A stretch of 64,000 bases of DNA from NCBI GenBank assembly GCA_015063695.1, contig SVTQ01000002.1, positions 1 to 64,000 of the forward strand, given 5' to 3'. The stretch is from Oscillospiraceae bacterium. Its GTDB lineage: Bacteria; Bacillota; Clostridia; Oscillospirales; CAG-272. The notes beneath the pieces were generated by a model, which made no database searches, had not been told where the DNA came from, and was given only the letters and a program-made list of their open reading frames with translations. The position numbers and the translations under genes were made by a program. Shown piece by piece: positions 1-9,854 of the stretch. The first letter of the stretch is position 1. Each line of letters starts with the position of its first letter.

Positions 1-230
1 AAGTCTACACTCTGAGTCAGACTGAGAGAAACGCAGGTAGATTTAGAGCTTTTTTCCTCGTAGGCATAGTTGCCTATGGTAGAGGAAAAAATGCTCTAAA
101 AGCAGATGTGGCGGGCTTTTGCCCGCCTTTTCCATGTCAGATTGTTTCATCAAGAAAAATTTGCTTTATACAAATCTTTCTGCTCACATCTGCGTTATAC
201 CAAGTTTGTCTTCGGTCTGACTCCGCAGGA
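1..230 (+). repeat. Structured repeat element, copy 1 (5' end cut by window)
   Basis: About 230 bp, repeated in inverse orientation at 9592-9824 with only a handful of differences. It folds densely on paper. 42-49 pairs with 93-100, 50-59 with 82-91 and 61-66 with 71-76, giving one long hairpin. 110-116 pairs with 121-127 around TTTT, 102-110 pairs with 185-193, and 155-163 pairs with 171-179 with one mismatch. 14-22 pairs with 215-223 and closes the whole unit. 30-36 can alternatively pair with 190-196, competing with the 102-110 pairing. The window starts inside a palindrome (GTCTACACTCTGAG) that is complete in copy 2. It lies 3' of rsmG. I see no coding evidence: no ribosome site, and the overlapping frame runs through the hairpins. 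Confidence 0.85.
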
Positions 231-244
231 ACTTTCTGCGGAGT
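220..244. terminator. Hairpin 3' of rsmG
   Basis: A 9-bp perfect stem (220-228 with 236-244) around the loop GAACTTT sits just after the rsmG stop codon. The loop echoes the core of the GGGGGAACTTTC hairpins flanking repeat copy 2, but the arm sequence is different. No clear U-tract, so a terminator role is inferred from position only. Confidence 0.5.
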
Positions 245-9143: not shown

Positions 9144-9204
9144 ATGGGGAAAACTTTCTGAAGAAAGTTTTCCCCATACCCCTTTCAAAGACTTTTGAAA
9201 GGGG
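9144..9204. repeat. Double hairpin after thrS
   Basis: Two adjacent perfect palindromes: 15-bp stem ATGGGGAAAACTTTC with its complement around TGAA (9144-9177), then an 11-bp stem CCCCTTTCAAA with TTTGAAAGGGG (9179-9204). The first may end thrS transcription. The same two sequence themes recur in reverse order and orientation at 9536-9591, on the other side of the XRE gene. Confidence 0.85.
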
Positions 9205-9535: not shown

Positions 9536-9591
9536 CCGTTCAAAAGCCTTTGAAGGGGTCAAAGGGGGAACTTTCCTCGGAAAGTTCCCCC
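9536..9591. repeat. Double hairpin left of repeat copy 2
   Basis: CCCGTTCAAA/TTTGAAGGGG followed by the perfect palindrome GGGGGAACTTTC-CTCG-GAAAGTTCCCCC (9564-9591). The order is the mirror image of the double hairpin at 9144-9204. Confidence 0.85.
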
Positions 9592-9824
9592 TCAGTCCGA
9601 AGACAAACTTGGTATAACGCAGATGTGAGCAGAAGGATTTGTATAAAGCAAATTTTTCTTGACGAAGCAATCTGACATGGAAAAGGCGGGCAAAAGCCCG
9701 CCACATCTGCTTTTAGAGCATTTTTTTCTCTACCATAGGCAACTATGCCTACGAGGAAAAAAGCTCTAAATCTACCTGCGTTTCTCTCAGTCTGACTCAG
9801 AGTGTAGACTTTGTCTACACTCTG
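9592..9824 (-). repeat. Structured repeat element, copy 2 (complete)
   Basis: Inverted copy of the element at 1-230. The few differences are single bases (for example in GTTTCATC versus GCTTCGTC, and in the A-rich arm of the main hairpin), plus a divergent end next to the flanking hairpin. It is complete at the end truncated in copy 1: a 14-bp perfect palindrome CTCAGAGTGTAGAC-TTT-GTCTACACTCTGAG occupies 9794-9824. It is bounded on both sides by identical GGGGGAACTTTC hairpins. It contains a frame starting MWRAFARLFHVR that is also present in copy 1, but no ribosome site; I do not call it a gene. Confidence 0.88.
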
Positions 9825-9854
9825 AGGGGGAACTTTCCTCGGAAAGTTCCCCCT
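9825..9854. repeat. GGGGGAACTTTC hairpin right of repeat copy 2
   Basis: A 12-bp perfect stem around CTCG, identical to 9564-9591. It lies just after the stop codon of the VanY-like gene and could terminate it on the minus strand. With 9564-9591 it gives repeat copy 2 matching ends. Confidence 0.8.

Follow-up and report, generated by a model that had tools for sequence, protein, structure and literature searches.

A Short Structured Repeat of Rumen and Gut Clostridia That Inserts at Intrinsic Terminators and Duplicates the Whole Terminator Hairpin

Introduction

Skipping-rope RNA (RF02924) lies between genes and is flanked by terminator hairpins, an arrangement that resembles the locus described here. 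In terms of target, the closest described systems are the group IIC introns (class C group II introns), which are intergenic structured RNAs inserted at intrinsic terminator hairpins (PMC4424553). In terms of general form, they are the bacterial MITEs, such as BOX, RUP, SPRITE, ERIC, and the Coxiella QMITEs, which are short and geneless, carry imperfect terminal inverted repeats, duplicate their target, lie between genes, and have a folded transcript (PMC10969869).

Here, we analyze a 232 bp element found in the first 64 kb of contig C32 (the stretch of DNA analyzed, hereafter "the window") of a 1.85 Mb draft genome comprising 45 contigs, which is 91% complete and has as near relatives the rumen metagenome genomes RUG14199 and RUG14272, labeled uncultured Ruminococcus sp. 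With the group IIC introns, the element shares a terminator target, a (putative) structured RNA, and an intergenic location, but it is 232 bp rather than about 2 kb in length, lacks the catalytic domain V and any Rfam match, and has neither an encoded reverse transcriptase nor a detectable trans-acting one. Retrohoming of group II introns, moreover, produces no hairpin duplication, unlike insertion of this element. With the bacterial MITEs, it shares short length, absence of a gene, imperfect terminal inverted repeats, target duplication, and intergenic location, and it is set apart from them by duplication of a whole hairpin of site-specific length, by a multi-branched fold that is compensated across genera, and by the fact that no autonomous partner was found. 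REP/REPIN sequences with RAYT and the IS200/IS605 relatives rely on hairpins and folded single strands, as does the element, but make no target duplication, whereas the element does. In CRISPR spacer integration and in casposons, Cas1 inserts DNA by cutting a palindromic repeat at either edge, so that the repeat is duplicated, as is the hairpin here, but the length of that repeat is fixed while that of the element's target is variable. The element is thus MITE-like in general form, with a target resembling that of the group IIC introns, while lacking a defining property of each.

Results and Discussion

Copies of the Element in the Source Genome

Using the complete second copy in the window as query (Table 1), we obtained 43 matching pieces in the genome, corresponding to about 30 separate insertions, rather than the two-copy unit described in the original prediction, which was made from the window alone. 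The two window copies are, as described there, near-identical and in opposite orientation (98% over 220 bases). We note, however, that the first of these is not a unit spanning positions 1–230, as had been proposed, but is incomplete, because the window begins at a contig end: only positions 1–219 belong to the element, the insertion runs downward from 219 on the minus strand, and the remaining half lies at the end of contig C25. Since the C32 start and the C25 end overlap by 112 identical bases within the element and carry ACTCCGCAGAAAGTTCCTGCGGAGT in both flanks, they are two halves of one insertion. Element copies also break the assembly between the C40 start and the C21 end and between the C33 and C43 starts, where the joinable contig ends overlap by 77 and 55 bases, respectively.

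The copies are near-identical and placed at unrelated genes, always at gene ends. An orientation opposite to that of the adjacent gene, suggested earlier as a shared property, is not the rule, as 14 of the 25 sites considered lie between convergent genes and both tandem arrangements also occur. None of the 232 bp is taken up by a gene. Aligned copies begin with CAGASYGAAGACAAACTTGGTA and finish in a terminal hairpin, and their terminal inverted repeats are imperfect and about 12 bp in length.

Table 1. Coordinates of the Element Copies, Their Parts, and the Flanking Terminator Hairpins in the Window (Strand Denotes the Putative RNA Sense for the Two Copies)
Feature	Position	Strand	Evidence or remark
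Copy 1, cut by the contig start	1..219	+	Genome search; 112 bp exact overlap with C25
Terminator hairpin ACTCCGCAGGAACTTTCTGCGGAGT adjoining copy 1 at its constant end	220..244	.	Duplicate on contig C25
Duplicated terminator hairpin AGGGGGAACTTTCCTCGGAAAGTTCCCCCT, first copy	9563..9592	.	Target duplication
Copy 2, full length, 232 bp	9593..9824	-	
Constant end CAGTCCGAAGAC (consensus CAGASYGAAGAC)	9593..9604	+	Imperfect inverted repeat of the other end
Helix P2, 5' arm GCAGATGTG	9619..9627	.	Partner 9702-9710
Inner hairpin GGCGGGC-AAAA-GCCCGCC	9685..9702	.	
Long hairpin P3 (TTTTAGAGC...GCTCTAAA)	9711..9770	.	Conserved CTCTACC/TACGAGG internal loop; strongest covariation
Single-strand/closing segment TCTACCTGCGTTTCTCTC	9771..9788	.	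Most conserved
Terminal hairpin CAGAGTGTAGAC-TTT-GTCTACACTCTG closing the element	9798..9824	.	5 of 12 pairs compensated
Duplicated terminator hairpin, second copy	9825..9854	.	

Other hairpin repeats occur in and around these copies. Repeats of ~40 nt, GTGAACCCCAA..TTGAGGACCCC and AAGGGGTCCTCAAG..CTTGGGGTTCTCTTT, are one repeat in two orientations with constant edges and variable inner stems. They are found nested within element loops as well as solitary and in tandem, at L018, L019, L025, L027, L029, and L069 and at ~25 independent sites (e.g., G000 C44:32990-33130).

The Terminator Hairpin Is Duplicated upon Insertion

The decisive feature, which the original prediction overlooked, is that the same terminator hairpin stands on both sides of the copies. 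It lies immediately before and immediately after the element, preceded by an A-run and followed by a T-run in the manner of a bidirectional terminator, while its sequence varies between sites. At a score cut-off of 14, applied to 51 sites, the duplication is detected in 24 of 25 full copies from the source genome, 9 of 11 from the sister species, and 9 of 15 from other genera within the family, and the duplicated hairpin nearly always adjoins the element on both sides. As a control, left and right flanks of different sites were compared, giving a 99th percentile score of 9.5, and the few higher control scores come from sites having a terminator repeat in common. Among further full-length matches, mostly from other families of the order, 10 of the 13 inspected score 18–31. 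The duplication is 21–37 bp long and tracks the number of stem pairs (r = 0.88). The upstream hairpin copy, which has no T-run, is often the decayed one, and at two loci (L025 and, in another genus, L251) the two flanking hairpins differ, as expected from recombination between two copies.

An empty site, found in another genus, establishes which way the event went. A rubredoxin-like gene of G105 has a single terminator behind it, AAAGAGCAGACTTTGGTCTGCTCTTTT, while at the same place G266 carries hairpin, element, and hairpin, with flanks that are 91–95% identical. The event was thus an insertion with duplication and not the loss of a double terminator. Insertion with hairpin duplication is demonstrated at this one site; between the source genome and its sister species, where empty sites were also sought, gene order is not conserved. 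Taken together, these data show that the element goes in at the foot of an intrinsic-terminator hairpin and duplicates the whole hairpin, and the upstream gene therefore retains a complete terminator.

The hairpin that flanks copy 2, GGGGGAACTTTCC-TCGG-AAAGTTCCCCC, is itself repeated in the source genome, occurring not only at 9563-9592 and 9825-9854, but also at about 9144-9175, on G000 C28 near 9371, and at L017. This suggests that terminators multiply here as well.

A Conserved Fold and the Strand Likely to Carry It

The element folds far beyond chance, with a mean z of about -10 against dinucleotide shuffles across 54 copies. The nested stems named in the original prediction are present, including the inner hairpin stem GGCGGGC/GCCCGCC, the stem AGCAGATGTG/CACATCTGC, and the long stem at 42-100, except that the pairing of 14-22 with 215-223 makes partial use of the flanking terminator, which starts at 220; the pairing within the element is that of CAGACTGA with TCGGTCTG. 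An RNAalifold consensus of 23 elements from three species contains 56 pairs, 22 of which are altered on both sides. In the corresponding fold test, 97.1% of cells are paired, with 123 doubly changed cells compared to 33 expected, and the covariation score of 0.312 (vs 0.131) is reached by 0 of 500 shuffles, with slid versions scoring far lower. Compensating changes thus maintain both the multi-branched fold and the terminal hairpin, and the fold itself is certain, bearing out a structured RNA, one of the candidates put forward originally.

The folded strand is likely to be the minus strand. Wobbles on pairs predicted from both strands favor it by 16:6 in the source genome and by 16:3 in the sisters, and the composition-corrected folding energy favors it only weakly, in 36 of 54 copies.

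Truncated Copies

Several copies are shortened at the far end, that is, at the would-be RNA 5' end, and three of these are still flanked by the duplicated hairpin, although several truncated copies were located by means of the left-end pattern, such that their count is biased toward the constant end. Additional far-end truncations, without the duplicated hairpin, occur in G266 and G105, and one copy (C28:9485-9594) is missing its left part instead. The far-end truncations suggest synthesis that proceeds from the constant end. However, the breakpoints of L082 and L094 show short homology with the hairpin start, meaning that later deletion, with selection sparing the functional terminator, can explain these truncations, and the truncated copies are therefore weaker evidence for target-primed synthesis. 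Considered together, the wobble pairs and the polarity of truncation point to a folded minus strand, either RNA or single-stranded DNA, that would be copied from one end.

One further aberrant copy, on the minus strand of L093 at 6277 (RUG14199 contig 94), is a chimera with the constant end at both ends, in which two subfamilies stand head to head through either template switching or inversion.

Distribution and Related Families

A covariance model of the element finds matches in 52 of 295 genomes of the family, representing 20 of 71 genera, and in a further nine families of the order. The distant members have almost no sequence in common with the window copy, but they retain the fold with its terminal hairpin, ends of the form CAG...CTG, and a duplicated terminator. 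Since the left end of the window copy, in its exact form, is limited to its own genus, sequence searches alone would suggest a genus-specific element. No match to the element was obtained in phage records, plasmid records, or viral contigs. In agreement with the initial impression that it belongs to no recognized RNA family, no Rfam family matches it either at the gathering score or down to an E of 10, and no match to skipping-rope RNA was found in 12 diverse copies even at an E of 10. A literature search on terminator-targeted or cruciform-targeted insertion likewise gave nothing matching.

Matches to the core of the model alone (L274-L293, in other genera of the family) belong to a further MITE-like family, whose inner fold is that of the element. 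Its ends are inverted repeats (GGGGCTGTCTCATTTAGC..., GGGGCTGTCTCATTTAGCGCAGAA) that are longer than those of the 232 bp element, it has neither the terminal hairpin nor the hairpin duplication, and it often lies directly behind a stop codon, with at least five near-identical copies in G217 and tandem copies in G182. Alignment by eye suggests homology between the ends of this second family and the outer stem of the first. Separately, sub-threshold matches to Gut-1 RNA (L344:673-753 and L037:1573-1674) are tandem GTGAAAT hairpins, and a dispersed hairpin repeat may be part of the Gut-1 family.

Search for the Mobilizing Enzyme

RVT_1 is missing from the source genome and from 15 of the 17 carriers, among them G105 (98% complete), G147, and G266, and is present in 6 of 17 non-carriers, that is, as often as in carriers or more often; G266 lacks it, yet holds an insertion that is missing in its sister G105. 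Y1 proteins are present in G000 and G001 and absent from the carriers G105, G147, and G266, several of the carriers being near-complete. Neither Cas1 nor the IS1182-type DDE_Tnp_1_6 domain occurs in four genomes of the genus, and no longer autonomous element with matching ends or duplicated terminators was found in about 96% of the 91%-complete assembly. Given these absences among carriers and genus genomes, a reverse transcriptase, Y1, Cas1, and DDE_Tnp_1_6 are not supported as the mobilizer, and the enzyme thus belongs to an unlisted family, is a common host enzyme, or has been lost.

REP-like repeats (GTAGGGGCG..CGTCCG) occur in the source genome, G000 (C13, C14, C15, C34, C43, and others), and at L242 and L243, accompanied by several RAYT-type Y1 proteins, with two Y1 genes containing REP sequences within their own coding region.

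Alternative Explanations

Taking these results into account, we consider the element to be a non-autonomous mobile element of an order-wide family that targets terminators by their structure, is mobilized in trans, and is copied from its constant end, a reading to which we assign a probability of roughly 60%. A non-autonomous mobile element had been among the candidates put forward originally, and is in line with the target duplications and the empty site, while another of those candidates, a chromosome-organizing repeat, found no support.

The alternative of an ordinary MITE, moved by cut-and-paste or copy-paste through the DDE transposase of a trans element with matching ends, with the long variable duplication being a habit of that transposase, is unlikely but still deserves serious weight. 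The element is smaller than 500 bp, present in multiple copies, geneless, and bounded by (imperfect) terminal inverted repeats, the related family carries longer inverted repeats like those of a classical MITE, and target duplications of highly variable length are listed for the IS1182 family. A characteristic short duplication length is, however, lacking, as known DDE duplications are near-fixed in length whereas the duplication here is set by each hairpin. DDE_Tnp_1_6, furthermore, is absent from the genus, no longer element with these ends or with a duplicated terminator was found in the portion of the source assembly searched, and the covariation of the internal fold would be left unexplained.

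We regard as quite improbable a SINE-like retroelement that is transcribed and whose RNA is copied by a reverse transcriptase at a nicked terminator (target-primed), the element parasitizing a group IIC intron or another reverse transcriptase. Terminators are also the target habit of the group IIC introns (PMC4424553), and the conserved RNA fold, the wobble bias toward the minus strand, and the loss of the would-be RNA 5' end in copies that keep their target duplication would all fit, with the reservation that the short homologies at the breaks allow for later deletion. The distribution of RVT_1, which is missing from the source genome and nearly all carriers and no rarer in non-carriers, argues against it.

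A structured regulatory RNA or double terminator that serves a host function and is not mobile could account for the covariation and for the constant location at gene ends, but the empty site of a sister species contradicts it, as does the duplication of a different hairpin at each site, and it would have to accommodate about 30 near-identical copies at unrelated genes, some of them cut short, making it a very remote prospect. Finally, an assembly artefact at repeats can practically be dismissed, since, although several contigs terminate within copies, most copies are internal to contigs and the same architecture recurs independently in many genomes, mostly metagenome-assembled and including near-complete ones.

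A Possible Mechanism of Insertion

For the preferred reading, that of a non-autonomous element mobilized in trans, we propose the following scheme. An enzyme supplied in trans would recognize the element as a folded single strand, either RNA or minus-strand single-stranded DNA, and its target as an extruded hairpin or cruciform. It would then nick both strands at the hairpin base, with the top-strand nick immediately following the hairpin and the bottom-strand nick immediately following its mirror image, such that fill-in of the gaps would duplicate exactly one hairpin of any length and yield the order hairpin-element-hairpin. An extruded cruciform as target would explain the variable duplication length without a ruler. 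Synthesis of the new copy would proceed from the constant end (CAG..GAAGACAAACT), with the 3' end released at the foot of the hairpin as its starting point, and may sometimes stop early.

More tentatively, and with the balance of our judgment somewhat against it, the element could represent a new class of bacterial mobile element, in which a folded RNA or single-stranded DNA would know any intrinsic terminator by its shape and be inserted by cutting at both feet of the extruded hairpin, the host having to provide neither a dedicated reverse transcriptase nor a Y1 transposase nor Cas1. On this reading, the element would be the first with a target duplication defined by DNA secondary structure rather than by fixed spacing.

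Conclusions

The element described here belongs to an order-wide structured mobile family of the rumen and gut Clostridia, for which current RNA and repeat annotation has no name. As the terminator survives insertion, such a family can multiply at gene ends at little cost. If the proposed mechanism holds, the target duplication would be set by DNA shape, making cruciform extrusion at terminators testable in vivo. It would also point to an undiscovered insertion enzyme, possibly one that is programmable by structure, not sequence.
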